Of a stretch of DNA of 64,000 nt, positions 4,431 through 46,313 are shown piece by piece. This DNA comes from an uncultured Porticoccus sp. (GTDB lineage Bacteria > Pseudomonadota > Gammaproteobacteria > Pseudomonadales > Porticoccaceae), in contig NZ_CAJXST010000004.1 in NCBI RefSeq assembly GCF_913061305.1, positions 124,001 through 188,000 on the forward strand. The letters run 5' to 3'. The translations under genes were made by a program, and so were the position numbers. The notes beneath the pieces were generated by a model, which had not been told where the DNA came from, did not search any database, and worked only from the letters and a program-made list of their open reading frames with translations. The first letter of the stretch is position 1. Each line of letters opens with the position of its first letter.

Positions 4431-5612
4431 ATGATGACTGTTGCTGATCGCTGGTTGTTGCCTGATGGCATTGAAGAGATACTTCCCAATCAGGCGCTAC
4501 AGATTGAGCGGTTGCGCCGTCAGGTGCTGGATTTGTATCACTGCTGGGGTTACGACCTGGTCATCCCGCCGTTGGTGGAGTTCACGGAATCGTTGCTCAG
4601 TGGAACCGGTTCTGACCTCGATCTGATGACGTTTAAGGTGACGGATCAGATCAGTGGTCGAATGATGGGTATTCGTGCCGATATGACACCCCAAACCAGT
4701 CGTATGGATGCTCACAGCCTTCGGCGCAATGGCCCCAGTCGCCTTTGTTATGCCGGAACAGTTCTCTATACCCGACCGAAACAGGCTCTTGAGAGTCGTT
4801 CTCCCATCCAGATTGGTGTGGAGCTTTATGGTGAGCCAGGCCTTGAGGCAGATATCGAGGTGATCAGTTTGATGGTGGAGACTTTGCGTCTCGCCGGGCT
4901 CGGCACGCCACAGCTCGATCTCGGTCATGTGGGCATCTATGCCAGCCTGCTTGAAGCGGCTGAACTGTCAGCTGATCGCGAAGCCGAGTTATTTGATCTG
5001 CTTCAGCGCAAAGCGGTTCCCGAGCTCGATGTCTGGCTCGGGAAGTACCTGGAAAATACGAATATTGCGTTGATGATTCGTGCGCTGGTCGGGCTTGCCG
5101 GCGATGCCTCCGTATTGGATCGCGCCCGTGAGTTATTTGCTGAGGCCCCGGCCGAAGTGGAGTTGGCACTGGATGAACTGCAGGCGGTTGTCAGCGCGCT
5201 CGGTGAAAGCTTCCCCGATCTGGAGCTCTATCTCGATTTGAGTGAGTTGCGCGGCTACCACTATCACACGGGTATCGTGTTTGCCGCCTATGATCAGGGG
5301 CTTGGTCAGGCCATTGGCAATGGCGGGCGCTACGACCATGTCGGCAAAGGCTTCGGTCGTTCCCGGCCGGCCACCGGCTTTAATATGAGTTTACAGTCGT
5401 TGGCCAGGGTCGCGTTGTCCGAGGCTGTGGCTGGTGGTATTTTTGCCCCTGTTAGTGACGAACCCGGTTGGCGAAAAGCCGTAGCAGCGTTACGCTCCAA
5501 TGGTGAGCGGGTGGTCTGTGGCTTTCCGGGCCAGGAGCCGGATTATCAGGAATTACATTGTGATCGCCAGCTGGTTCGGTTGGATGGCATCTATAAAATA
5601 ACTGCAGTTTGA
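4431..5612 (+). CDS. hisZ: HisZ, ATP phosphoribosyltransferase regulatory subunit
   Basis: 393-residue paralogue of histidyl-tRNA synthetase. It lacks charging activity and forms the regulatory part of the HisGS-HisZ enzyme, the first step of histidine synthesis. The class II core is recognisable: LLPDGIEEILPNQA at the N-terminus, the motif around TFKVTDQISGRMMGIRADMTPQ, and a GGRYDHVGKGFGRSRPATGF block near residue 300. The start could be ATG 4431 or ATG 4434. Presence of hisZ implies that the genome encodes the short form of HisG elsewhere. Confidence 0.94.
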   Translation: MMTVADRWLLPDGIEEILPNQALQIERLRRQVLDLYHCWGYDLVIPPLVEFTESLLSGTGSDLDLMTFKVTDQISGRMMGIRADMTPQTSRMDAHSLRRNGPSRLCYAGTVLYTRPKQALESRSPIQIGVELYGEPGLEADIEVISLMVETLRLAGLGTPQLDLGHVGIYASLLEAAELSADREAELFDLLQRKAVPELDVWLGKYLENTNIALMIRALVGLAGDASVLDRARELFAEAPAEVELALDELQAVVSALGESFPDLELYLDLSELRGYHYHTGIVFAAYDQGLGQAIGNGGRYDHVGKGFGRSRPATGFNMSLQSLARVALSEAVAGGIFAPVSDEPGWRKAVAALRSNGERVVCGFPGQEPDYQELHCDRQLVRLDGIYKITAV

Positions 5613-6935
<1,323 letters not shown>

Positions 6936-7064
6936 TTGCTGGGTATTCCTCAATTTTTCACTGGGTGGTGAAGCGGCGAGCAGCATTTTTGTGTCGACAA
7001 AAGGTTTCCGGTTACCCGATTCTCTATTAAGCTAAAAACAGTAGTGGATAAAAGGCTTCTGTTT

Positions 7065-7475
7065 ATGCTGAGCTCGGTTGAACTCAAAGATTACATGCTT
7101 CGCAATCCGGTTAAAGTCAATCAGCGGGATGATTTGTTCGTCGCCATTGATTTGATTGTCAGCAATAAAATTTCCGGGTTGTGTGTGGTGGATGACGACA
7201 ATAACCTGGTGGGTGTGCTGTCCGAAACGGACTGTTTAAAGGCCAGCTTGAGTGCCAGATACAATCAGGAAGGCAGTGTTGGTCCAGTGCGTGATGTGAT
7301 GACGCGCGATGTATTTACAGTCACGTCACAGGCCGACATTGTCGACGTGGCCCAACAGATGATGAAGCGGGGTTTTCGTCGTTGCCCGGTTGTCGACAAG
7401 GGTAAGTTGGTCGGCCAGATTACCTGCAGGCAGTTGCTCAACGGCGTTGGCAAATTCCCCGACAATCACACTTGA
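7065..7475 (+). CDS. Two-CBS-domain protein
   Basis: 136 residues consisting almost only of a CBS pair (residues 10-65 and 75-130), which usually senses adenine nucleotides. Motifs include ISGLCVVDDDNNLVGVLSETD and a second RRCPVVDKGKLVGQIT. A longer reading starts at GTG 7044, but ATG 7065 has AAAAGG (7050-7055) at proper spacing and is preferred. The partner or effector is not evident. It is followed by an unrelated exported protein. Confidence 0.85.
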   Translation: MLSSVELKDYMLRNPVKVNQRDDLFVAIDLIVSNKISGLCVVDDDNNLVGVLSETDCLKASLSARYNQEGSVGPVRDVMTRDVFTVTSQADIVDVAQQMMKRGFRRCPVVDKGKLVGQITCRQLLNGVGKFPDNHT

Positions 7476-31802: not shown

Positions 31803-32783
31803 GTGGACAAATTCGACCGCATTCAGCACCTCCACCGAATTTTTAAAAACCGCCGCTTGCCGGTGCCCGTTCGGGTGTTGGCGGAAGAACTAGAGTGCTC
31901 CGAGCGCAACGTCAAACGCCTGCTGGAGACCATGCAGCTGGTGGATGCCCCACTGGTATATGACGAGTCGGGCCGCGGCTGGCGCTATGAAAAAAATGAG
32001 GGCGACCTCTTTGAACTGCCCGGCCTGTGGCTGACCGGTGATGAGCTGCAATCACTGAGCCTGCTGCTCAGCTTGCTGGAGCAACTGGGCAACGGCATCC
32101 TCAACGACGAAATCGTCGTGATCGAAAAAGAGGTTACCAAACTGCTCAATGCTCGGGGTATCGACCCCAGCGCCTTCGCCGATCGCGTTCGCGTCCTGCC
32201 CATCGCCCACCGCCAACTGCCGGGAACCCTTTTCAACAAAGTCAGCGAAGCGCTGCTCAGAAGCAAGCGTATCCGCATTGGTTACCTCAGCTATCGGGGC
32301 GAAAAAACCAGCCGCGACATCAGCCCACAAACCTTGGTCCATTACCGGGAGAACTGGTACATCGACGCCTGGTGCCACCTCAGGAATGAATTGCGCACCT
32401 TTTCCATTGCCCGCGTCAGCAGCGCCGAAATCCTCAAGACCAACAGCAAGGTCATTGCCAAAGAGACCCTGCGCGAACACTTCGCCAGCAGCTTTGGCAT
32501 CTTTTCGGGCAAACCAAAACACACCGCAAGGCTACGTTTTTCAAGGGAAATCGCCCGCGAAATCGCCTTGCAGGAATGGCACCCGCAACAGCAGGGCGAG
32601 TGGGATGGCAGGGAATACCTGCTCACCATTCCTTATTCAGACGACCGCGAACTGATCCAGGATTTACTCCGCCATACGCCCCATGTGTATGTGGAGGCCC
32701 CGGTAAAGCTGCGTAAAAAGCTGCAAAACAAACTGCAACAGGGATTAGAAAGGCAGCTCGGCAAAGGGCTGGGGTGGCTGTAG
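31803..32783 (+). CDS. WYL-domain transcriptional regulator (YafY-type)
   Basis: 326 residues. An N-terminal winged helix-turn-helix (residues 5-65; VRVLAEELECSERNVKRLLETM) precedes a WYL domain (about 150-220, including IRIGYLSYRGEK, the WYIDAWCHLRNELRTF core and FSIARVSSAEIL) and a C-terminal WCX-type domain. WYL proteins bind nucleic acid or nucleotide ligands and many (BrxR, CapW) repress defence operons. It starts at GTG 31803, 73 bp after recJ, as the first gene in the island. A role in controlling the cas operon is inferred from position; base composition is host-like. Confidence 0.85.
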   Translation: MDKFDRIQHLHRIFKNRRLPVPVRVLAEELECSERNVKRLLETMQLVDAPLVYDESGRGWRYEKNEGDLFELPGLWLTGDELQSLSLLLSLLEQLGNGILNDEIVVIEKEVTKLLNARGIDPSAFADRVRVLPIAHRQLPGTLFNKVSEALLRSKRIRIGYLSYRGEKTSRDISPQTLVHYRENWYIDAWCHLRNELRTFSIARVSSAEILKTNSKVIAKETLREHFASSFGIFSGKPKHTARLRFSREIAREIALQEWHPQQQGEWDGREYLLTIPYSDDRELIQDLLRHTPHVYVEAPVKLRKKLQNKLQQGLERQLGKGLGWL

Positions 32784-33426: not shown

Positions 33427-34386
33427 ATGGAACAACTGACTGATCTAAAGGCTATTCTGCATTCCAAGCGTGCGAATATTTATTACCTTGAAAAATGCCG
33501 GGTGATGCAGAAGGACGGTCGCGTGCTCTACCTGACGGAAGCTAAAAATGAAAATCAGTATTGGAATATTCCCATTGCCAATACCACATGCCTGTTACTG
33601 GGAACCGGGACTTCGGTTACACAGGCAGCAATGCGAATGCTGGCCTCGGCAGGTGTGCTTGTCGGATTTTGTGGCGGCGGCGGGACGCCCTTGTTGATGG
33701 CCAATGAAATTGAATGGCTCAATCCACAAAGTGAATATCGGCCGACTGAATATATACAAGGGTGGATGCAGTTCTGGTTTGATGATGACCGACGACTTCA
33801 AGCTGCAAAACAATTTCAGCAAGAAAGGATAAAGTATCTGCAAAAAGTATGGGGCAAGGACCGAGACCTACAGACAGAAGGATTCAATATAGCTGACCCA
33901 ATTTTACAAAAGTCTCTCGACAACAATCTGCAAAAAGTGTCAGTGGCCGGGAAAGTTGGCGCGTTGCTACAAGGTGAAGCAGAACTTACCAAACAGCTCT
34001 ACAAGTTTGCTGCTCATGCCAGCAGCTACGGTAACTTTACCCGTGAGCGTGAAGCCATAGATACCGCCAATACCTTTCTCAATCATGGTAATTATCTGGC
34101 CTACGGATTAGCAGCAACAACGCTCTGGGTTCTGGGCATTCCTCACGGCTTTGCTGTGATGCACGGTAAGACTCGTCGTGGGGCGTTGGTGTTTGACGTT
34201 GCTGATTTGGTGAAAGACGCATTGATCCTGCCATGGGCGTTCATCTGTGCAAAAGAAAAAAGTACAGAACAAGAATTTCGCCAGCAATGTTTACAGGCAT
34301 TTACTAACCATAACGCATTGGAATTTATGTTTGATCAGGTCAAAGATATCGCCCTTAAGACCGATTGGGAGACAGTAATAGCATGA
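33427..34386 (+). CDS. cas1: CRISPR-associated endonuclease Cas1 (type I-F)
   Basis: 319 residues. Integrase of new spacers. The sequence is type I-F specific: ILHSKRANIYYLEKCRVM at the start, NIPIANTTCLLLGTGTSVTQ, FCGGGGTPLLMANEIEWL and HGNYLAYGLAATTLWVLGIPHG. Catalytic residues are visible as Glu184 (LQGEAELTK), His246 (VMHGKTRRG) and Asp257/260 (LVFDVADLVKD). The start is ATG 33427 with AAGGA very close by. Its TGA overlaps cas2-3 (ATGA). No convincing sigma-70 promoter was found in the 297 bp upstream. Confidence 0.97.
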   Translation: MEQLTDLKAILHSKRANIYYLEKCRVMQKDGRVLYLTEAKNENQYWNIPIANTTCLLLGTGTSVTQAAMRMLASAGVLVGFCGGGGTPLLMANEIEWLNPQSEYRPTEYIQGWMQFWFDDDRRLQAAKQFQQERIKYLQKVWGKDRDLQTEGFNIADPILQKSLDNNLQKVSVAGKVGALLQGEAELTKQLYKFAAHASSYGNFTREREAIDTANTFLNHGNYLAYGLAATTLWVLGIPHGFAVMHGKTRRGALVFDVADLVKDALILPWAFICAKEKSTEQEFRQQCLQAFTNHNALEFMFDQVKDIALKTDWETVIA

Positions 34387-37300
34387 TGGTCACGTTTGTC
34401 TCTCAATGCGAGAAAAAAGCCCTCGCCCGTTCCCGGCGGGTGCTGGATGCTTTTGCCGACCGCATAGGTGATAACACCTGGCAGACGGTGATTACACAGG
34501 AAGGTTTACTGGCCGTAAAAAAGCTGCTGCGGAAGACTGCCAGTAAAAATACAGCTGTGAGTTGCCATTGGATACGGAGCCGGTCGCGGACGGAGTTAGT
34601 TTGGGTGGTGGGGAATAAAAATAAATTTAATAACCAAGGTGCTGTACCGGTCAATAGTACATCCACCAATCGGTTTTATCGTGACGATTTGCAGGATTGG
34701 CAGTTTCTCCCAACTATCAGATCGCTGACGTGTTTAGCCGCATTACTGCACGACTGGGGCAAAGCCAGCGCCCGCTTCCAGCAAAAACTTGCCAAAAACT
34801 ATAAAGGCCACGGGGCAGACAGATTACGTCACGAGTGGGTTTCGTGCTTATTGCTCAAAGCGCTGATTTCCAACACGGGCAACCCGAATGTGGACGAGGG
34901 TTGGTTAACAACGTTAAAAGATGGAAAGATTGATGAAGATGCCCTCAGGACATCCCTATGCAAAAGTAGTGAAAAGCCATTAGCCGATTTGCCGAGTGTC
35001 GCAAAATTAGTGGCCTGGTTGATTGTTACCCACCATCGGCTTCCCTTACCAGACGATACAAAATCGGGTAGTTCGTGTACCAGCCTTGAAGGCATGCTTG
35101 GCATGATCGACAAAAGCTGGGGGTATGAAAATAAGGTAGACGATCTTGCATCCTGTTTGGAATTCCCCGAGGGGCTGTTAACCAACTCCAGCAAATGGCT
35201 GTCGCAAATCAAACGTTGGTCAGCCAAGTTACTGGATTCACAAGACGTTATTGCTCAGGCCATCGACAACGGCAGCTACCGCGTATTGCTGCACCATGCC
35301 CGCTTGTCTTTGATGCTGGGCGATCACTACTTTTCATCCCTTGATATTGACCAGACCCGCAATTGGCCCAATGCCACTGGCTTGCTTGCCAACACCCAAA
35401 AAAACAAATCACCCAAGCAGGCTCTGGATCAGCACTTGGTCGGTGTTTACGAAAGTGCCAAAAATATCGTCGGCAAATTGCCCGTTATCGAGAACGGCCT
35501 GGAACCTAGCTTTAATACTGTGGAATTAAAGCGTAAAAGCCCAACTTCCTACGCTTGGCAAGATACAGCCACCAAAAAAGTACGTGACTGGCGTAAAGCA
35601 TGCAACGATACGCGCAAAGGCTTTTTCGCGGTCAATATGGCCAGCACTGGCTGCGGTAAAACCTTTGCCAATGCGAAAGCCATGATGGCCCTCTCTGAAG
35701 ACGGCGATAGCCTGCGTTATATCCTAGCTTTGGGGCTGCGCACCCTTACATTGCAGACCGGCGACGAATACCGCGAGCGAATCTTCAAAAAAAGTGATGG
35801 CTGCGACCTGGCGGTATTGATTGGTTCTAAAGCGATTGCGGATTTGCACTATCAAAACAAACAGGAACAAACGCAAGAGCAAGTGAACCATGGCTCGGAA
35901 TCTGTCGAAACATTGTTGGCCGATTCCGACGAAGTTGTCTACCAAGGTGAGCTGCCCGAAGAAGGTTTAACCACGGTTTTACAGAGTTATAAAGACAGGC
36001 AGTTACTCTACGCCCCGGTTTTGGCCTGCACTATTGACCATATCATTGCCGCAACAGAAACCACTCGCGGTGGGCGTTACATTCTGCCTGCGTTGCGTTT
36101 GCTGTCGTCGGATTTGGTCATTGATGAGGTGGATGACTTCACCGGCGGTGACCTAATTGCCATTGGCCGCCTGATTCATCTGGCAGGCATGCTGGGGCGT
36201 AAAGTGATGATTTCCTCGGCGACCATTCCACCGGCAATGGCGGAAGGCTATTTCAATGCCTACCAGCAAGGCTGGTTACTCTATTGTAAAACCCGTAACG
36301 CCGGCCCTCTGGTGGGTTGCGCCTGGATCGACGAGTTTTCTACGCAGGTCGAAGATATCGGTAATCAAGACCAGGCAGCTCAGGACTATCGGAAAATTCA
36401 TGACCGATATATTGAGAAGCGAGTAGAGCAGTTAGGCAAGCAAGCGGCGAAGCGCAAAGCCATTGTGATTGATTGCTCGCCAGCTATGTGGGGTAATGAT
36501 GAGCACGATCAGTCAGGCATCGCCAATAAAAAAGGAGTCTGGTTCAACCGAATAGCCGCCACCACTCTTGATAGGCACGAGCAACACCATACGATAGATA
36601 GTCAAACCGACTTAAAGGTTTCTTTTGGGGTGGTACGGATTGCCAATATCCAACCCTGTGTGCAGCTTACCCGCTTTTTGTTGGGTTATGACTGGCCTGA
36701 AAATACCGAGGTGCGAGTGATGGCTTACCACAGCAGACAAGTACTGCTGCTGCGCCACGAACAGGAAAAGCATCTTGATGGCGTGTTAAAACGTAAAGAA
36801 AAACAGGGCGAGCAACCACAAGCCTTTAATAACGAGCTGATTCGCAATCACCTAGATAGCATTGCCAATCAGCAACCCAAAGTGAAAAACCTGTTGTTTA
36901 TCCTGGTCGCCACCCCTGTTGAAGAAGTGGGTCGGGATCATGACTTCGATTGGGCCGTTATCGAACCCTCATCGTACCGCTCCATTATTCAATTGGCAGG
37001 ACGGGTCAAACGGCACCGTGACGGTGAGGTAGAACATCCTAATATCGGTATTCTGCAATACAACTGGCGAACCCTGAAAGATGGTGACAAACCAAGAGAA
37101 CCGCGGTTTTGCAGACCGGGGTATGAAGTGGCTGGTAAGTTACCGAAAGTAAAAGCAGATGGGACAAAAAACTATGGCGCTATGCAAAGCCACGATCTTT
37201 TTAAGGTGGTGGATGAGACGCTGATACATACCCGACTGGATGCCACGCCAAGGATTCAGGAAAGGCAAAAAAGCAGTCAAACACAGATGGCCTTGCTGGA

Positions 37301-37772
37301 GCATGCAGCCATAGATAGCCAACTGACCTATTACGAGGGCAAAGGCCCGGAAACCCTGCAAGGCTATATTCAGTGGTACTGGTATCTCACTGCTTTACCG
37401 CAAATCCTCAACCGCTTTCGCCAAAGTACAAAAAGCGTTCAGCTTTACCGTGTGACTAATGGTAGCGGTGACGCTTGGTTTACCGAGCGCGATGTCAAAG
37501 GGGAATTTAGTTACCTCAACACCGGTGAGTTTGCTCGCCATGACATTGTCTATCAAATCGCCACCACAGAGTTTACAAAGGTTCAGTCAGCACGGCTTTG
37601 GCTACAGCGCGATTATCTGCAGTTGCTACAGGCACAAAGTGAGTTACGCGAAATATCATTGAATAAGGCTGCAATCCTCTACGGAGAAATCAGCCTGGAT
37701 GTTTATCCAAATGCCATCAACAAAGCGTATGAATACAACGATCAGTTAGGTCTGTATGAAAAGGAAGAATGA
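34383..37772 (+). CDS. cas3: Cas2-Cas3 fusion, nuclease-helicase (type I-F)
   Basis: 1,129 residues. The fusion that defines type I-F: an N-terminal Cas2-like domain (about 1-95; MMVTFVSQCEKKALARSRRVLDAF), an HD nuclease domain with LAALLHDWGKASARF (His-Asp near residue 122) and THHRLPLP, then a superfamily-2 helicase. Helicase motifs are ASTGCGKTFA (Walker A, about 421), DEVDDF (about 580) and SSATIPP (motif III), with QLAGRVKRHRDGE near motif VI. It degrades DNA recruited by Cascade and partners with Cas1. The start is ATG 34383, overlapping the cas1 stop by four bases; the frame also has an upstream in-frame codon at 34365. Confidence 0.97.
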   Translation: MMVTFVSQCEKKALARSRRVLDAFADRIGDNTWQTVITQEGLLAVKKLLRKTASKNTAVSCHWIRSRSRTELVWVVGNKNKFNNQGAVPVNSTSTNRFYRDDLQDWQFLPTIRSLTCLAALLHDWGKASARFQQKLAKNYKGHGADRLRHEWVSCLLLKALISNTGNPNVDEGWLTTLKDGKIDEDALRTSLCKSSEKPLADLPSVAKLVAWLIVTHHRLPLPDDTKSGSSCTSLEGMLGMIDKSWGYENKVDDLASCLEFPEGLLTNSSKWLSQIKRWSAKLLDSQDVIAQAIDNGSYRVLLHHARLSLMLGDHYFSSLDIDQTRNWPNATGLLANTQKNKSPKQALDQHLVGVYESAKNIVGKLPVIENGLEPSFNTVELKRKSPTSYAWQDTATKKVRDWRKACNDTRKGFFAVNMASTGCGKTFANAKAMMALSEDGDSLRYILALGLRTLTLQTGDEYRERIFKKSDGCDLAVLIGSKAIADLHYQNKQEQTQEQVNHGSESVETLLADSDEVVYQGELPEEGLTTVLQSYKDRQLLYAPVLACTIDHIIAATETTRGGRYILPALRLLSSDLVIDEVDDFTGGDLIAIGRLIHLAGMLGRKVMISSATIPPAMAEGYFNAYQQGWLLYCKTRNAGPLVGCAWIDEFSTQVEDIGNQDQAAQDYRKIHDRYIEKRVEQLGKQAAKRKAIVIDCSPAMWGNDEHDQSGIANKKGVWFNRIAATTLDRHEQHHTIDSQTDLKVSFGVVRIANIQPCVQLTRFLLGYDWPENTEVRVMAYHSRQVLLLRHEQEKHLDGVLKRKEKQGEQPQAFNNELIRNHLDSIANQQPKVKNLLFILVATPVEEVGRDHDFDWAVIEPSSYRSIIQLAGRVKRHRDGEVEHPNIGILQYNWRTLKDGDKPREPRFCRPGYEVAGKLPKVKADGTKNYGAMQSHDLFKVVDETLIHTRLDATPRIQERQKSSQTQMALLEHAAIDSQLTYYEGKGPETLQGYIQWYWYLTALPQILNRFRQSTKSVQLYRVTNGSGDAWFTERDVKGEFSYLNTGEFARHDIVYQIATTEFTKVQSARLWLQRDYLQLLQAQSELREISLNKAAILYGEISLDVYPNAINKAYEYNDQLGLYEKEE

Positions 37773-37773
37773 T

Positions 37774-39339
37774 ATGGCAGAGGAAAAGAATGAGATCATC
37801 AAATTCTTAGATAAGATGAAACGATCTATAAAAAAGAGCACAGACGATAAAAGGCTTGAGGACGAGCACTGCAGGAGTGATTGTTACGAGTTTATTTTTG
37901 GAAATTCATCAAAGGCTGTTGAATACAAAGATATTATTTTGTTTTTGCTTGGTGGAACGAAAAATATCCGGTTCCCAAGAAATGAACGTGATTATTATTT
38001 GTTGCTGCTTCTCGGTATCGAAATAAAGCCAAAGCTCACATTTAAGGATGCTTGTGATATATCCCACCCAATTGTTTTTGATGTTTTAAATGGATTGGAT
38101 ATAGATTCAATCCAATCTCTAGAAATCATTAAAATGGTAAAGCTTCATAATCGTGATTGTCTTAGTTATTTCCAGCTTTTCGAAAGTGCTATTGATTTAA
38201 ACGAATTTTCTATGACTGGCATAGTTGAGTTGGCAGAAAAAATAGTCGGAGATAGTAAATATGGGACGGTAATTACCCATTCATCTAAAATGACCAATCC
38301 AGCGTGTAAATATCCTAGGATATATTTTGACAGTGGTGAAAGATTAACGGACGGTTTAATTCGATCTGGTAACGTTATTACTGATTTCGATTTGCACATC
38401 GATGCATCCAAGCTGAAAGTCTTTAAATTCCTTGCACTCCCTGTCGAGAAAGACACTCTATTTGATCGTCTAAAGAGAGGTGATTTCGAGCCTTTGCAGG
38501 CAATATTTGGTGTTGATGATCAAACGGCAGAGGCCTGGTACGATCAGCTAAAACCTTGCATAACATCTCAAGACCATCGCACGCATGACCTTATTAAGCA
38601 GGTTTTGTTTCCTGTTGAAAATAGTTACCACCAGCTATCTTTGTTACAACCATCTGGTCTGGTTTTTAAGCTAAAAGAGCGAGTTGATCAAATAAATTCA
38701 CGTTCAGTGGATGCTTATTTGGGAAGAAAGTCCCAAAAAGATGATAAGTACTATGCTAATGGATTTAAAACAGTTCCAAACATTACTGTTACCAGGCACG
38801 GAGGCGAACACCCTAAAAATATAAGCGGTTTAAATAATAAGTATCAAAGCTGCTATTTGCTTGACTCACGTCCACCGTTTATAGAAAAAAGGGATGTGAA
38901 ACTCCCCACCAAAGATTTTTTTATCCAAAGCCTGCGTTTCTACGATTGTAGAGACATTCTGGAGCGGCTCGATAAGGTCTTCAAAATCGAGCGTGACGGC
39001 CAAATTCCACTGGATAATATTCGTAAGGGCAGAGATCGCTGCCTTGGCGACATCTTGGATGTGATCCTGCAGAAAATGATGGCGTTGAGAGACGTCTCAA
39101 CTCAACAGTATTGGCCGGAAACCAGCAAGTTACCGGCTTGGCAAACGTTCTGGCTATGTGACCAATATAAAGATCAGCGACTCCAGGAGGATGACTGGCT
39201 GTACAGCCTCTGTGACCAGATTGCCCGATGGGTAGCCAACGCTTACAAAGACACTATCAAACACCCTGTCATGCTAGGCGAGGCCGAGCGCCAGTACATT
39301 AAAGAATTTATAGAAGACAACAAGGAGGTGTTGAGATGA
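37774..39339 (+). CDS. csy1: Cas8f (Csy1), enlarged N-terminus
   Basis: 521 residues, against about 434 in the P. aeruginosa protein as I recall it. Large subunit of the I-F Csy complex that reads the PAM. Conserved blocks are SGERLTDGLIRSGNV, KLKVFKFLALPVE (about residue 212; about 116 in P. aeruginosa), PVENSYHQLSLLQPS, GGEHPKNISGLNN and a C-terminal helical region. About 95 extra residues lie in the N-terminal part. The first two thirds are strikingly AT-rich (20 of 60 GC at 37921-37980, 17 of 60 at 38101-38160), the end is not (29 of 60 at 39061-39120). The start is one base after the cas2-3 stop; AAGGAAGA precedes it. Confidence 0.93.
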   Translation: MAEEKNEIIKFLDKMKRSIKKSTDDKRLEDEHCRSDCYEFIFGNSSKAVEYKDIILFLLGGTKNIRFPRNERDYYLLLLLGIEIKPKLTFKDACDISHPIVFDVLNGLDIDSIQSLEIIKMVKLHNRDCLSYFQLFESAIDLNEFSMTGIVELAEKIVGDSKYGTVITHSSKMTNPACKYPRIYFDSGERLTDGLIRSGNVITDFDLHIDASKLKVFKFLALPVEKDTLFDRLKRGDFEPLQAIFGVDDQTAEAWYDQLKPCITSQDHRTHDLIKQVLFPVENSYHQLSLLQPSGLVFKLKERVDQINSRSVDAYLGRKSQKDDKYYANGFKTVPNITVTRHGGEHPKNISGLNNKYQSCYLLDSRPPFIEKRDVKLPTKDFFIQSLRFYDCRDILERLDKVFKIERDGQIPLDNIRKGRDRCLGDILDVILQKMMALRDVSTQQYWPETSKLPAWQTFWLCDQYKDQRLQEDDWLYSLCDQIARWVANAYKDTIKHPVMLGEAERQYIKEFIEDNKEVLR

Positions 39340-40277
39340 CCGAAAACCTGATTCTTCTGCCTCATATAAAGGTGCAAAACGCCAACGCCTTATCCAGCCC
39401 TTTCACCATTGGTTTTCCGGCTATGACGGCCTGGCTGGGGGCTGTGCATGCATTGCAGCGTAAATTGAATATGCAGGATTCCCCCGTTGATTTTTCTGCC
39501 GTTGGTGTCGTGGTGCATCACTTCGATTTGCAAACCTATAAAGGCCCAGGTGATTTTGTGCATTCCATTATTGGCACGGGCAACCCACTGGAACCCAAGT
39601 CCGAAAAAGATAAGCCAAAAGGTAATGCTGTTCGCTCTTCCTTTATCGAAGAGGCTCGCTGTCATTTGGAGGCGAGTTTGGTTATCGAATACAGCGGCAT
39701 TGAGGCCCAGGATGAATCGCAAATGTTGGAGCGATTACATCAATTAATGCTCGGCAATATGAAGCTGGCAGGTGGCGATATTTTGGGCTGTGGTGTACCT
39801 GAAATCGTACGTGATTTTCGGGTAACTAAACGCAAGTTAATGCCTGGCTATGCCTTGGTCGAGCGCCGCGATTTAATGCAGGAGGCCATGGTGAAGGGGC
39901 AAGACGCCATGGACGCAATGCTTGATTATCTAGCCATACATCACACCTCCAGTAAAGGCGAGAAGGACGGAGAGGAGCGTGTCCACTGGCAAAGTCAACG
40001 CAAAGCCACCGGGCCAGATGGTCAGAGAGGCTGGATTGTACCTATTGCCACCGGCTTTCATGGTGTTGGTGATCTGGACAGTGCACTTAACCAACGCGAC
40101 CCGGATACGCCACATCGCTTTGCCGAAAGTGTAGTGACCCTGGGTGAATTCAAAATGCCTTACCGCTTGGATTCACCCGAAGACTTACTCTGGCGCTACC
40201 AGGTAGAGCCAGAAAACAACCTTTATCTCTGCGTTCAACAAGCATTTGAACCTGAAACCACCCACAGCGATTACTAA
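39336..40277 (+). CDS. csy2: Cas5f (Csy2)
   Basis: 313 residues. Csy complex subunit that caps the crRNA 5' handle together with Cas8f. The start NLILLPHIKVQNANALSSPFTIGFPAMTAWLGAVHALQR is the Csy2 signature, and GGDILG and GWIVPIATGFHGVGDL follow. It overlaps csy1 by four bases (ATGA) and csy3 starts 20 bp downstream with AAGGAG. Confidence 0.95.
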   Translation: MTENLILLPHIKVQNANALSSPFTIGFPAMTAWLGAVHALQRKLNMQDSPVDFSAVGVVVHHFDLQTYKGPGDFVHSIIGTGNPLEPKSEKDKPKGNAVRSSFIEEARCHLEASLVIEYSGIEAQDESQMLERLHQLMLGNMKLAGGDILGCGVPEIVRDFRVTKRKLMPGYALVERRDLMQEAMVKGQDAMDAMLDYLAIHHTSSKGEKDGEERVHWQSQRKATGPDGQRGWIVPIATGFHGVGDLDSALNQRDPDTPHRFAESVVTLGEFKMPYRLDSPEDLLWRYQVEPENNLYLCVQQAFEPETTHSDY

Positions 40278-40297
40278 TTTATTCAAGGAGAAGCACC

Positions 40298-41332
40298 ATG
40301 GCTAAGAAAGAAAATACCGCATCTGTATTGGCGTTTGAGAAAAAATTGGTTCCCTCTGATGGCTATATCTACGGCTGCCAATGGGAGAACAAAGACGATG
40401 CAACTCCGCTCTCATTAAATGAGAAATCAGTGCGGGGGACGATTTCAAACCGTTTTGGGAAAAAAGATAAGGTTTTGGCTGACGATCCAATGGCTCTTGG
40501 TAAAAAGGTTGAGAGTCCTAACCTACAAACTGTCGATGCCTGCTCATTAGGGCCCCAGCAGGACACCCTGAAACTGCATTTCACGCTCAAGGTGCTGGGC
40601 GGATTGAAGCAGCCTTCAGCCTGTAATAACGCCGCGTTTAAACAAGGTTATCAGCAAGCTGTAAGCAATTACCTTGACACTGAGGGCATGAGAGAGCTTG
40701 CCAAGCGTTATGCGCTGAATATCGCTAATGCTCGGTTTTTATGGCGTAACCGCTTTGGTGCAGAAACTATTATGGTGCAAGTTAAAGCCTTGAATAAAGG
40801 CGCTGAACAAAGCTGGGAATTTGATGCACTGGAGTTGAACCCCCGGGATATGGAGACCACAACGGCCGATATCGATAGTCTTGCAGGACGTATTGCTGCT
40901 GCATTAACCAGTGACCACGACTTTTTGATGCTTGATATCAGCTGTTATGCCAAAGTGGGTAAAGCTCAGGATGTTTACCCCAGCGAAGAGCTGGTGCTGG
41001 ATAAGGGCAAAGGCAATAAAAGTAAAATCCTATATGCGGTTGATGGGATTGCAGCTATGCATTCCCAAAAAATCGGTAATGCCCTCAGAACAGTTGATAC
41101 TTGGTACCCTGAACACGGCGACTCGGTAGCATCTGCTGGACCCATTGCGATTGAACCCTATGGTGCAGTCACCAATTTGGGGAAAGCCTTTAGAACACCT
41201 GCCGACAAACAAGACTTCTATACCTTTTTTGATAACTGGGCACGTGGTGGCGAGTTATCACGAGTTGAGGATGAACATTACGTGATGGCTGTGTTGGTGC
41301 GTGGTGGTGTATTTGGCGAAAGTGATAAATAA
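40298..41332 (+). CDS. csy3: Cas7f (Csy3)
   Basis: 344 residues. Backbone subunit; six copies coat the crRNA. Signature motifs are ASVLAFEKKLVPSDGYIYGCQWEN at the start, ANARFLWRNRFGAE, and a C-terminal ITN-like AVTNLGKAFRTP with GGELSRVEDEHYVMAVLVRGGVFGE. A good AAGGAG ribosome site fits with its high required dosage. Confidence 0.96.
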   Translation: MAKKENTASVLAFEKKLVPSDGYIYGCQWENKDDATPLSLNEKSVRGTISNRFGKKDKVLADDPMALGKKVESPNLQTVDACSLGPQQDTLKLHFTLKVLGGLKQPSACNNAAFKQGYQQAVSNYLDTEGMRELAKRYALNIANARFLWRNRFGAETIMVQVKALNKGAEQSWEFDALELNPRDMETTTADIDSLAGRIAAALTSDHDFLMLDISCYAKVGKAQDVYPSEELVLDKGKGNKSKILYAVDGIAAMHSQKIGNALRTVDTWYPEHGDSVASAGPIAIEPYGAVTNLGKAFRTPADKQDFYTFFDNWARGGELSRVEDEHYVMAVLVRGGVFGESDK

Positions 41333-41343
41333 CAGGTGATGAC

Positions 41344-41895
41344 ATGAACTATTACCTCGATATTCACATTTTGCCGGACCCAGAGTTTAAAGAAACGGTA
41401 TTAATGAATGCTCTACACACCAAACTCCACAAAGCACTGTGCGACTTGGAGTCCACCACTATCGGAGTCAGCTTCCCCAATAATGAGCGTACGCTCGGTG
41501 ACCGTTTGCGATTGCATGGCTCAGCCGAGGTGTTAGACAAGCTTCAGTGCCAAAGCTGGATCGGCGGCATGAGTGGCTACTGCCTGCAAAGCGATATTCA
41601 GCCCGTGCCGTCAGATTCAAAGTTCCGTAACATCTCGCGCCAACAACCGACGATGAGTCCGGCAAAGCTTAAACGGCTATTTAAGCGTGGTTCTATAACA
41701 GACGATGAGGTTAAGCAGTACAAAGTTAAAATGTTTGCCAAAGGATTGGATAACCCATATTTGGAAATAGTGAGCGGTTCAAACGGTCAAAGACATAGGC
41801 GCTATATTAAATTTGGTCCCCTGTTGGATAACCCTATTAAAGGTGCTTTTGACCAGTTCGGTCTTTCCAAAATCGCTACCATTCCCTGGTTTTAA
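41344..41895 (+). CDS. csy4: Cas6f (Csy4), crRNA endoribonuclease
   Basis: 183 residues. It cuts the repeat RNA 3' of its hairpin and stays bound. N-terminal MNYYLDIHILPDPEF, catalytic His29 in ALHTKLHKAL, the arginine-rich groove helix (SPAKLKRLFKRG), and the terminal GLSKIATIPWF all match the family; His29 aligns with the catalytic His of P. aeruginosa Csy4. Last cas gene; no terminator follows, so transcription may continue into the toxin-antitoxin pair. Confidence 0.96.
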   Translation: MNYYLDIHILPDPEFKETVLMNALHTKLHKALCDLESTTIGVSFPNNERTLGDRLRLHGSAEVLDKLQCQSWIGGMSGYCLQSDIQPVPSDSKFRNISRQQPTMSPAKLKRLFKRGSITDDEVKQYKVKMFAKGLDNPYLEIVSGSNGQRHRRYIKFGPLLDNPIKGAFDQFGLSKIATIPWF

Positions 41896-41964
41896 ATCCG
41901 TCGATTTTGCCGGGTTGGACCAGTAAATAAGGATGAGTACCTGGCGATTGGCCAGAAACACGGG

Positions 41965-41993
41965 TTGGATAATCATATGATCGGCACTATAAT
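41965..41993 (+). promoter_or_regulatory. Sigma-70 promoter of the toxin-antitoxin pair
   Basis: TTGGAT (41965-41970), a 17-bp spacer, TATAAT (41988-41993). Near-consensus and 32 bp ahead of the antitoxin start, so the pair need not depend on cas transcription. Confidence 0.7.
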
Positions 41994-42014
41994 TCTGGCT
42001 AGTCTGTCTAGAAT
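41992..42014. promoter_or_regulatory. Inverted repeat, likely antitoxin operator
   Basis: ATTCT ... CTAG, 5 bases, CTAG, AAT: imperfect palindrome overlapping the -10 region. Antitoxins of the Phd/YefM family bind such sites to repress their own promoter. AGGAGAG (42015-42021) follows as the ribosome site. Confidence 0.55.
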
Positions 42015-42025
42015 AGGAGAGAAAG

Positions 42026-42274
42026 ATGACCGCATGGCAATTACAGGATGCTAAAAACCGCTTCAGTGCTCTGGTAAAAGCGGCAGAGAGCGAAGGGCCG
42101 CAGGTAGTTACCGTTCATGGTAAGGACAAGGCGGTATTACTTTCGGTCGAGGCTTACCAGCAATTGATACAGCGCAAAGGTAGTTTGCTGGACTTTTTTC
42201 AGAGTTCTCCGTGGGCCAAAACCGATATTGAAATTTCCCGCTCTCGGGATACAGGACGGGAAATCGAGCTGTGA
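42026..42274 (+). CDS. Phd/YefM-type antitoxin
   Basis: 82 residues. The start MTAWQLQDAKNRFSALVKAA is the Phd/YefM DNA-binding fold, with GKDKAVLLSVEAYQQL typical of the family and a flexible charged tail that would wrap the toxin. Its TGA overlaps the toxin's GTG (GTGA), so the pair is coupled. Own promoter and operator upstream. Confidence 0.9.
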   Translation: MTAWQLQDAKNRFSALVKAAESEGPQVVTVHGKDKAVLLSVEAYQQLIQRKGSLLDFFQSSPWAKTDIEISRSRDTGREIEL

Positions 42275-42696
42275 ACTATCTACTCGATACCTGCCTTCTG
42301 TCTGAGTTGCGCAAACCGGAACCGGATACAGGTGTGGTGGCATGGATTGCCGACATTGATGAGGCTAGGTTGTTTATCAGCGTTCTGAGCTTGGGCGAAA
42401 TCCAGAAAGGCGTCGCAAAACTGGAAAATGGTCGACGTAGGAACGCCTTGCAACACTGGCTCGAACAGGACTTGCTGTGCCGGTTTGCACAGAGGGTTTT
42501 ACCCTTTGATCTCGATATGGCGCTGGAATGGGGGTTGGCCAGCGCGGAGAGCGAAAGCCGGGGCAGACCGGCTCCGGTTATCGATGCGTTGCTAGCAGTA
42601 ACGGCGATAGCTCACAATCTCACCTTGGTGACACGCAATGACAAGGATTTTTCGGATTTTCCCGTAAAGGTGTTGAACCCGTGGGGCCAAAATTAA
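42271..42696 (+). CDS. PIN-domain toxin (VapC/FitB type)
   Basis: 141 residues, a ribonuclease toxin. Acidic metal-binding residues are in place: Asp6 (LLDT), Glu43 (LGEIQKG), Asp105 (VIDALLA) and Asp124 in TRNDKDF. It is paired with a Phd/YefM antitoxin, a common hybrid. It starts at GTG 42271 and lies between csy4 and the array leader, so the array can be inherited with it. RNA target unknown. Confidence 0.9.
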   Translation: MNYLLDTCLLSELRKPEPDTGVVAWIADIDEARLFISVLSLGEIQKGVAKLENGRRRNALQHWLEQDLLCRFAQRVLPFDLDMALEWGLASAESESRGRPAPVIDALLAVTAIAHNLTLVTRNDKDFSDFPVKVLNPWGQN

Positions 42697-42986
42697 ATTG
42701 GATCTGGCAGGGCATCCGGGAAATCAGGATGTAATCCTGCACATATTGTGGCACTGAATATTTCCAGCAATGACCTCTCACAAAACTTCAACTTTTCCAC
42801 TCCAAAGGGGTGGCTCTATATCAGGTAGTTTACGTTACCCACCTTGCCCTCCAGACCCAATGTTTTTCGTTCTTTAAAAATCAATATAAAAATTAAATAG
42901 TTACAAGACCACTAAAAATCATTGGGTAACACGATGGTTTTAAGCTAACTAATTGTTGTAGCTATTTTTTTGTGCTTTATACTTCA
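42697..42986 (+). promoter_or_regulatory. CRISPR leader region
   Basis: 290 bp from the toxin stop to the first repeat. The part nearest the array (42860-42986) is strongly AT-rich (for instance TCTTTAAAAATCAATA), as in active leaders where IHF bends DNA for Cas1-2/3 integration. Earlier there are two hairpins without T-runs: CAGGAT/ATCCTG (42725-42739) and CCACTCC/GGGGTGG (42797-42813). No exact IHF site was found. The degenerate repeat at the far end supports this side as the leader. Confidence 0.75.
42956..42983 (+). promoter_or_regulatory. Candidate pre-crRNA promoter
   Basis: TTGTAG (42956-42961), a 16-bp spacer, TATACT (42978-42983). The -10 sits only three bases before the first repeat, so transcription would begin inside it. 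Possible but not certain; a promoter further upstream is also feasible. Confidence 0.35.
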
Positions 42987-45900
42987 GTTCACTGCCGCAC
43001 AGGCAGCTTAGAAAAAGCGCAGAGAGTATGCCCAAGGCATCATTGAGTTCACTGCCGCACAGGCAGCTTAGAAACGCGTGTTCGGGGTAAGACTGGGCCT
43101 GACTGCGTTCACTGCCGCACAGGCAGCTTAGAAATGTCTCTGCCGGGTGTCCTAAAAGGGGCCAGCGTTCACTGCCGCACAGGCAGCTTAGAAATTCGAT
43201 CAGTCCGTATATCTCAAGGTCAAAACGTTCACTGCCGCACAGGCAGCTTAGAAAGATCCAATACCTGGCGATACGTCAGCCTGTGCGTTCACTGCCGCAC
43301 AGGCAGCTTAGAAATGTGTTCACGGAGCGGCCAGAAAATACCAAGTGTTCACTGCCGCACAGGCAGCTTAGAAAATAAAGTTCAAGGCTGATGGCAGCAT
43401 CGACCAGTTCACTGCCGCACAGGCAGCTTAGAAATGCAGCCGCTCAGTATAGGCAGCCTTTGATATGTTCACTGCCGCACAGGCAGCTTAGAAAAAAACG
43501 CAGTTGGATTGTATGAGTCAGCTGATGTTCACTGCCGCACAGGCAGCTTAGAAATATGGGTCGCGGAGCCAGTGGTCTGTAGTCATGTTCACTGCCGCAC
43601 AGGCAGCTTAGAAAATCACACTGAAGCGGCGGCGGCCCTGGGATACGTTCACTGCCGCACAGGCAGCTTAGAAACGGCTGCGGATTTGGCTGACGGAAAA
43701 ATACGGGTTCACTGCCGCACAGGCAGCTTAGAAATGCACAGATAGGGCCCCGCTATCCGCATCAGAGTTCACTGCCGCACAGGCAGCTTAGAAATGAATA
43801 AATACGGCGGTGGGCCATGGTTTGATGTTCACTGCCGCACAGGCAGCTTAGAAAACCAAAACTGACGGTGGTGGCGCTGCCGGTGGGTTCACTGCCGCAC
43901 AGGCAGCTTAGAAACCCATGGTGCGCGGCTGGTGCGGGTGGAAACGTTCACTGCCGCACAGGCAGCTTAGAAATGTTTATGCTGCAAGCAAAGTGAGGGT
44001 TAAAAGTTCACTGCCGCACAGGCAGCTTAGAAAATTCTGTTTGATTACCCTGGACATTACTTTAAGTTCACTGCCGCACAGGCAGCTTAGAAATGCCTGA
44101 ATGGGCACTACCTAAACCAAGGGATGTTCACTGCCGCACAGGCAGCTTAGAAATCAGGTCAGCGCCCCTCAGGTTAGCGCCCCTCGTTCACTGCCGCACA
44201 GGCAGCTTAGAAAAGCGTCTACGACAACTTTGCCTTCCACATGGAGTTCACTGCCGCACAGGCAGCTTAGAAAAGATTAAGAAGTCTGTCCGCCTCATTC
44301 TTTGCGTTCACTGCCGCACAGGCAGCTTAGAAAACTTAGCGAAGTCGATAGAGTCAAGGCAGCTAGTTCACTGCCGCACAGGCAGCTTAGAAATTCGCAA
44401 GGGACTTGAGAGGCTGGTAGTTAACGTTCACTGCCGCACAGGCAGCTTAGAAAATCGAGAACAACCGCGTTCTATCCAGCCCGCCGTTCACTGCCGCACA
44501 GGCAGCTTAGAAAATCCAAGTTGTAGCTCGTCGTAGCCCTTGGAAGTTCACTGCCGCACAGGCAGCTTAGAAAACGACATTGAACAAACCAGCCGCAAAT
44601 GATTTGTTCACTGCCGCACAGGCAGCTTAGAAATGCTCAAGCCCGGCCAGCGCCTCGGTGCTGATGTTCACTGCCGCACAGGCAGCTTAGAAATGCCCAG
44701 CGGCGGCGCGGTGACCAATATCACCGTTCACTGCCGCACAGGCAGCTTAGAAAAACACTGATGGTGCTCCGGCGTTTGCTGCTGCGTTCACTGCCGCACA
44801 GGCAGCTTAGAAATGAAAAGGGAGTAGCCGCGATACTGGGCAGCGGTTCACTGCCGCACAGGCAGCTTAGAAAAAACAGGAAGCCCAGCACCAGGAAGTT
44901 GATAAGTTCACTGCCGCACAGGCAGCTTAGAAAACCATCTCCTTGACCGCCTCAATAAAAGCGGTGTTCACTGCCGCACAGGCAGCTTAGAAAAACAGAA
45001 TGTAAAAATGCTGATCTTTCATGCTGTTCACTGCCGCACAGGCAGCTTAGAAAAGTGACATCAACGCGGGAAACCTTCCATAAAGGTTCACTGCCGCACA
45101 GGCAGCTTAGAAAGCTGGCGCATCTGGCTCCTGCGCTCTGCCTCCGTTCACTGCCGCACAGGCAGCTTAGAAAACGATGGCAATCAACGTGATGAGGCCG
45201 GTAACGTTCACTGCCGCACAGGCAGCTTAGAAAACGCTGACCTTTACCTGTGAATAATCAATTGCGTTCACTGCCGCACAGGCAGCTTAGAAAATTTTTT
45301 GCCCTTCTCAGTTGATAAAGTACGGGTTCACTGCCGCACAGGCAGCTTAGAAATGAACTTCCTATATCCGTGCATTCAAGGCCCGGTTCACTGCCGCACA
45401 GGCAGCTTAGAAAACCAGCGCCGCCGCCGGTAGTTTTGCCACCATGTTCACTGCCGCACAGGCAGCTTAGAAAAAGCAACCTGCTAGATCAGCTTATCGG
45501 CTGGCGTTCACTGCCGCACAGGCAGCTTAGAAATCCAATCCGTATAACAATTCATGGCAGCGGATGTTCACTGCCGCACAGGCAGCTTAGAAAAAGGACA
45601 CAAGAGCGGCATCCGTTGCCGTAGTGTTCACTGCCGCACAGGCAGCTTAGAAAATGCCCCTCCCTAGGGCGATTTTGAGGTATTCGTTCACTGCCGCACA
45701 GGCAGCTTAGAAAAGCAGGCGAATCTCTTTGCCCACGAACTGAACGTTCACTGCCGCACAGGCAGCTTAGAAATATAACAGCCAGCGCCTGGCTTTTAAA
45801 CTCATGTTCACTGCCGCACAGGCAGCTTAGAAAGCACAGTTCGTCACGCTGGCGAGTACGGCAATGTTCACTGCCGCACAGGCAGCTTAGAAACGCTGCG

Positions 45901-46313
45901 CACCTGTTCACCGGTAACGGTATTGGTTCACTGCCGCACAGGCAGCTTAGAAATGGTACATCGGTTAATCTTGCGTCTGTGGTCAGTTCACTGCCGCACA
46001 GGCAGCTTAGAAAATGAAAACAGGGCAAGAGAACGATTACAGTGTGTTCACTGCCGCACAGGCAGCTTAGAAATCTGAGCTGTCTATTACCATAACGAAT
46101 GCTGAGTTCACTGCCGCACAGGCAGCTTAGAAAAGACCACAGCAGCACGGCCAAAACCTTTGTGGGTTCACTGCCGCACAGGCAGCTTAGAAACAAAAAG
46201 GACGAGCCAGAGCCGCCCGCCTCAGGTTCACTGCCGCACAGGCAGCTTAGAAATTTCTCAAGTCCCTCGACCCACGCAGACCTCAGTTCACTGCCGCACA
46301 GGCAGCGTAGAAA
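42987..46313 (+). CRISPR. Type I-F CRISPR array, 56 repeats, 55 spacers
   Basis: 28-bp repeats starting GTTCACTGCC, with stem CTGCC/GGCAG around loop GCACA and ending CTTAGAAA, which is the type I-F repeat with an 8-nt handle. 55 copies are identical; the last (46286-46313) has one T to G change in the sequence after GGCAGC. The unit is 60 bp. All spacers are 32 bp except one of 31 bp (43915-43945), which shifts the phase by one base. No spacer duplicated by eye. Orientation: leader on the left, degenerate terminal repeat on the right, transcription on the plus strand. Confidence 0.98.

Follow-up and report, generated by a model that had tools for sequence, protein, structure and literature searches.

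A chimeric type I-F1 Cas8f with a foreign N-terminal half in an uncultured Porticoccus species

The DNA analysed here, a stretch of 64,000 nucleotides from a contig of an uncultured Porticoccus sp. (the window), contains a complete type I-F1 CRISPR-Cas operon with a chimeric cas8f: the N-terminal half of the gene is foreign, whereas its C-terminal 144 residues are native, as are the remaining cas genes. The encoded protein is a domain-swapped type I-F1 Cas8f. Very probably, recombination exchanged its PAM-sensing module, with possible consequences for function and selection that are argued below from sequence comparisons. The genes cas1f, cas2/3, cas8f, cas5f, cas7f and cas6f follow each other in this order, all six with intact reading frames, and are accompanied by an array of uniform repeats (Table 1). 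The sequence AAGGAAG is located just 5' of the cas8f ATG, and the cas2/3 product is 87% identical in amino acid sequence to that of the related operon L082 and 76% to that of L080.

Table 1. Features of the type I-F1 locus; positions are those of the window.
Feature	Position	Strand	Basis or remark
cas1f	33427..34386	+	TIGR03637, 494 bits
cas2/3 (cas3f), native to the operon background	34365..37772	+	TIGR02562, 883 bits; start per ORF tool
cas8f (csy1), chimeric, 521 aa	37774..39339	+	PF09611, E 7e-75; below TIGR02564 cut-off
Replaced cassette, Cas8f N-module, residues 1 to ~377	37774..38904	+	blastn break vs L080, L081, L082
Span holding the ~100-residue extra hook domain (edges ambiguous)	37870..38262	+	Alignments with L079 and canonical Cas8f
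A-loop equivalent, residues 206-213, DLHIDASK (canonical D-xxGNAA)	38389..38412	+	D210 at the place of P. aeruginosa N111
K-wedge equivalent, residues 343-351, GGEHPKNIS (canonical GGTKPQNIS)	38800..38826	+	H346 for P. aeruginosa K247, N349 for N250
Native C-terminal helical bundle, residues 378-521	38905..39339	+	83% aa (90 residues) vs L082, 63% vs L080
cas5f (csy2)	39336..40277	+	TIGR02565; 78% vs L080
cas7f (csy3), thumb with K70 and S73	40298..41332	+	TIGR02566
cas6f (csy4)	41344..41895	+	TIGR02563
CRISPR array, 56 repeats of 28 nt, 55 spacers of 31-32 nt	42987..46313	+	

The borders of the exchange are visible at the DNA level. Compared with L082, the window is 84% identical over positions 35205-37765, shows no blastn similarity from there to 38904, and is 87% identical from 38905 onwards. 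The same junctions are found with L080 and L081, at DNA identities of 73/72% and 71/70%, respectively, before/after the gap; similarity to the three operons resumes at 38903-38905, which was confirmed at base level, and L082 and L080, aligned with each other as a control, match unbroken across cas8f. The left junction is situated in the last cas3 codons (37765-37773), the right one at ~38905 in codon 378 (P. aeruginosa residue ~280), and the intervening cassette of 1.13 kb encodes the hook with its extra domain, the A-loop and the K-wedge. At the protein level, 29/40 residues at positions 321-360 are identical to L079, a second carrier described below, with no other relative above 15/40; at positions 401-440, 37/40 are identical to L082 and 15/36 to L079. 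Given the native C-terminal bundle, a transfer of cas8f as a whole was rejected, and the exchange is younger than the split between the window and L082. An earlier note, made on this DNA from the letters alone, had described an enlarged, AT-rich N-terminal region with an extra part that may alter PAM reading, bind another factor or resist anti-CRISPR proteins, and had placed it at 37774-38890, nearly the exact extent of the cassette. This interpretation is partly supported: the N-terminus is enlarged, foreign in base composition and unlike known Csy1, and it is situated where the PAM is read and PAM-mimicking anti-CRISPRs act. It does not represent a native Cas8f carrying an extra domain: residues 1 to ~377 are replaced as a whole, including the PAM-contacting loops outside the extra part. 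In L081, cas8f (5803-7163) is split into two frames in that MAG, reflecting either a frameshift or an assembly error.

A profile search of genome contigs revealed L079, from the Desulfobacterales MAG JAGXFP010000025, as the sole insert-bearing relative. Its operon is accompanied by an array of 54 repeats, and its Cas8f (529 aa) is 41% identical to that of the window over residues 12-521; within the N-module, identity amounts to 50% over residues 144-365 and ~31% over 1-143. Both proteins have the insert motif KLTFK.ACD..HPI...KLHN and the wedge loop GGEHPKNIS, and they are identical over 21 residues around the wedge (TVTRHGGEHPKNISGLNNKYQ). The L079 Cas8f is itself a chimera, its N-module residing in an operon background different from that of the window: DNA identity between L079 and L096 is 74% up to position 5906 and 74% again after a gap at 5907-7058, which extends from the cas2/3 end to codon ~377 and matches the junctions in the window, whereas the control pair, L096 and L089, is continuous across cas8f. 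Unlike the window, L079 has the background and the helical bundle of the L096/L089 lineage and retains Asn at the N111 position. The cassettes of the two carriers have no detectable DNA match. At 50% protein identity and without such a match, the two N-modules were apparently imported separately, out of a diverged and unsampled family, rather than passed between the window and L079, and the donor lineage is thus likely to be unsampled as well. No further carrier was found in viral contigs, plasmids, phages or ~1300 genomes, the latter searched with protein and PF09611 queries among others; the look for the extra domain in other Cas8f that the earlier note had suggested thus yielded a single case, and no broad I-F branch of equally long homologues with normal composition emerged, L079 alone having the insert.

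The PAM duplex is gripped by a hook, an alanine-rich loop and a lysine wedge (PMC6546366). The PAM is read by N111 and N250, a site that also serves AcrIF7 for docking (PMC7797054), with further contacts to K28 and K31 (PMC10155984); the helical bundle rotates to recruit Cas2/3 and provides the docking site of AcrIF4 (PMC7797054). In comparison with Cas8f/Csy1 of P. aeruginosa PA14 (PDB 5uz9, 6b44, 6ne0, 7jzx), the window has the same operon order, the PF09611 match, the helical bundle, N250 and many core residues of the N-module, but differs in length (521 vs 434 aa), in the ~100-aa hook domain and in the replacement of N111 by Asp and of K247 by His. Both the Asn of the A-loop and the Lys of the wedge of the canonical I-F1 PAM reader are thus absent, and the Asn250 equivalent is present; L079 has Asn, His and Asn at the three positions. 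Overall, the N-module of the window is ~30% identical to I-F1 relatives and keeps 45/70 highly conserved canonical positions. The N111D substitution could weaken PAM binding and hence possibly reduce activity.

Retention of N250 and of the 45 conserved positions would fit a neutral replacement, in which the new module works like the old one with the same PAM and brings no adaptive consequence; the fact that exchange took place twice, separately and between the same borders, and the changes of N111 and K247, both situated in PAM-duplex loops, speak against neutrality without being proof of selection, and this explanation is considered rather unlikely, albeit one to be taken seriously. It is improbable that the exchange damaged the system through poor target binding caused by N111D and K247H: dsDNA binding is lost in the P. 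aeruginosa mutants K247E and N250D (PMC9001735), but the substitutions in the window are different ones, so that no outcome follows from those mutants, and the six intact reading frames, the 56-repeat array with its uniform repeats and the occurrence of the same His in L079 alongside a 54-repeat array argue for a working system.

The Cas7f thumb is also unusual in both carriers. K70 and S73 are common to the window and L079, whereas the canonical E70 and K73 are found in 77 and 80, respectively, of 86 others; of 1811 pairs with a similar distance, 12 have two such rare residues this close together in common. Where Ser or Asn occupies position 73, the N-module residuals tend to be lower (Mann-Whitney p 4.5e-4, uncorrected for kinship). 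It is possible that E70K/K73S co-adapted with the diverged N-module of Cas8f, for which these figures are suggestive only. The PAM read by canonical I-F1 Cas8f is GG/CC. In a search for protospacers, the 55 spacers of the window yielded no significant match in phages, plasmids or fetched loci (one match, E 0.7, is at chance level), and ten of them, searched as exact pairs in IMG/VR, gave no match; the array could be older than the exchange.

The two parts of the protein have conflicting histories. In the N-module tree, the window and L079 are joined (100/100), and grouping of the window with L080 is rejected (AU p 3.4e-7); in the C-module tree, the window groups with L080 (100/99) and L079 with L096 (96/87), and grouping of the window with L079 is rejected (AU p 5e-48). 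In a comparison of 83 operons, no N-modules deviate as strongly as those of the window and L079, whose C-modules are ordinary: N-module identity is 30% instead of the expected 76% both for the window and L080 and for L079 and L096 (-8.1 SD in each case). The two N-modules have 20 rare residues in common, cas5 and the C-module none. Vertical descent, with a native N-module that diverged fast and gained an insert without any exchange, draws on the fact that Cas8f belongs to the more variable subunits and that faster N-module change is seen in L111, L144 and L077 too, but it is hardly credible in view of the conflict between the half-gene trees (p 3e-7 and 5e-48), the rare residues and the insert common to L079, and the abrupt change of DNA identity at 38905.

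As the earlier note had stated, the protein is long: the Csy1 chains of P. aeruginosa comprise 434 aa, the Cas8f of close relatives 401-450 aa and most homologues 400-450 aa. The KVFKFLAL block, which had been placed near residue 212 instead of about 116, occupies residues 215-222 and aligns with P. aeruginosa residues 116-123; the resulting offset of ~99 and the extra stretch of ~100 aa agree with the ~95 additional N-terminal residues claimed. In alignments with canonical Cas8f, these residues follow the first helix and precede the S/THP motif, within the hook region of the N-terminus. Where the insert begins and ends is ambiguous: it covers residues ~33-143 with the canonical WLxxAA helix aligned C-terminal to it and ~62-163 with the helix aligned N-terminal to it, the latter being suggested by the L079 alignment; the core common to L079 covers residues ~59-136 (LGG..FP.N.. 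KLTFK.ACD..HPI .. KLHN .. LF). Assignment to a known domain was rejected: the insert has no match in Pfam, PHROGs, PADLOC, PDB, phages or plasmids, and only L079 has it. In a structure model of the whole protein, the C-terminal helical bundle is predicted with a pLDDT of ~95 and has Csy1 chains as its best Foldseek matches, the N-module is modelled poorly (pLDDT 30-70), and prediction of the insert from two sequences reached a pLDDT of 47.

The ~100 additional residues in the hook region might suggest the gain of a domain inside an otherwise native Cas8f, a scenario with very little probability because the N-module outside the insert (residues 144-368) is just 30% identical to L080 while cas3, cas5 and cas7 are 76-82% identical. 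Base composition points to the same extent of replacement. GC and GC3 are 0.369 and 0.334 in the cassette and 0.481 and 0.59 in the remainder of cas8f, which substantiates the within-gene change reported earlier; no 1131-nt segment of cas3 or cas5-cas6 falls below a GC of 0.46, and recJ is at 0.60. The likeliest GC3 change point in cas8f is codon 383 (reached by 0/300 shuffles), five codons downstream of codon 378, where homology resumes. As the low GC spans the cassette up to near the junction, the AT-rich part corresponds to the whole replaced N-module and not to the insert alone.

Cas8f passes the curated cut-off of PF09611 (252.8 bits vs 22.7) but fails the Csy1 equivalog model NCBIfam TIGR02564 (114.5 bits vs a cut-off of 169.4). 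A Cas8-HNH of type I-F4 or a Cas8-Cas5 of the transposon type I-F3 was rejected, as the 521 residues include no HNH or Cas5 part, and these assignments are also ruled out by the separate cas5f and the full cas2/3. Although the genome is in 16 contigs, an assembly chimera is highly improbable: the junction is in frame in an intact reading frame, there is no second cas8f (the gene is the sole PF09611 match in the genome), and L079, an independent MAG, carries this module family between matching junctions.

A Phd/YefM-type antitoxin and PIN-domain toxin pair (42026-42696) is located between cas6f and the array, and a gene for a WYL-domain regulator (31803-32783) lies upstream of cas1f, as a WYL gene does in L040, an operon on a Methylobacter plasmid. 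The cas6f product is 68% identical to that of L072 and 62% to that of L080, but only 24-31% to those of operons with cas1 and cas7 at nearly the same distance, so that cas6f seems to have been exchanged, too. A family search found a Cas8f match in none of 16 other genomes of the genus, and the GC of the cas genes is 0.46-0.50 (cas8f 0.40) vs 0.57-0.60 in the two genes upstream; with no Cas8f match in these genomes and GC below that of the upstream genes, the whole CRISPR-Cas system (33427-46313) looks acquired.

Most likely, homologous recombination acted at two places, the conserved cas2/3 end and the vicinity of the border in Cas8f between PAM-sensing half and helical bundle, and thereby replaced the whole N-terminal module (hook, A-loop and K-wedge) in place by a strongly diverged one with a ~100-residue hook domain. 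The helical bundle recruiting Cas2/3, the Cas5/Cas7/Cas6 backbone and the array were kept native, so that the complex would presumably still assemble and cut through its native parts, and a module of the same family entered an unrelated operon background (L079) at matching junctions. The new module would alter the surface gripping the PAM duplex, and the likely benefit would consist in escape from anti-CRISPRs docking on this surface, in altered PAM reading, or in both.

In type I restriction enzymes, target-recognition domains of HsdS are swapped and the remaining enzyme stays as it was. The exchange in Cas8f resembles these swaps in that the DNA-reading part is exchanged; this is a working analogy between proteins that are not homologous. 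Recombination is known to shuffle adaptation and effector modules between CRISPR-cas loci (PMC12669027), but that shuffling concerns whole genes or modules, whereas the exchange in the window occurred inside one gene at a domain border. No matching description of a domain-swapped Cas8f was found in the open-access literature.

Other unusual Cas8f proteins were encountered among the operons. The long Cas8f of L034-L036 (~500-517 aa, class-level relatives) have extra residues in the same hook region as the window, where they display long, probably coiled helices; they differ in sequence, lack the GGxxPxNIS wedge and are unrelated to the insert of the window by the alignments made here. Between L111 and L095, identities are 83% for cas3, 94% for cas7, 83% for the C-module and 59% for the N-module, with a DNA gap at 5156-5576, and L144 has a DNA gap at 5982-6356 relative to L038. 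Both stretches, over the SHP motif and the A-loop and smaller than the cassettes of the window and L079, are replaced or strongly diverged between well-conserved flanks, the A-loop GNAA being changed to GDAG or GNGT.

Exchanges may affect the N-terminal half of Cas8f repeatedly. A broader proposal, advanced tentatively, is that this half is an exchangeable cassette, swapped among I-F operons by recombination with the cas2/3 end and the start of the helical bundle as fixed borders, that changes PAM preference or evades PAM-mimicking anti-CRISPRs, the hook domain and the Cas7f thumb change then representing a distinct mode of PAM reading from an unsampled I-F lineage. Exchange within a gene can escape whole-gene trees or family models, and the Cas8f described here falls below the NCBI Csy1 equivalog cut-off. 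Codon 378 (P. aeruginosa residue ~280) offers a natural swap border for chimeric type I-F effectors. As the exchanged surface is where PAM-mimicking anti-CRISPRs act, the chimeric operon would represent a natural experiment on escape or on re-tuning of PAM reading without rebuilding the complex.
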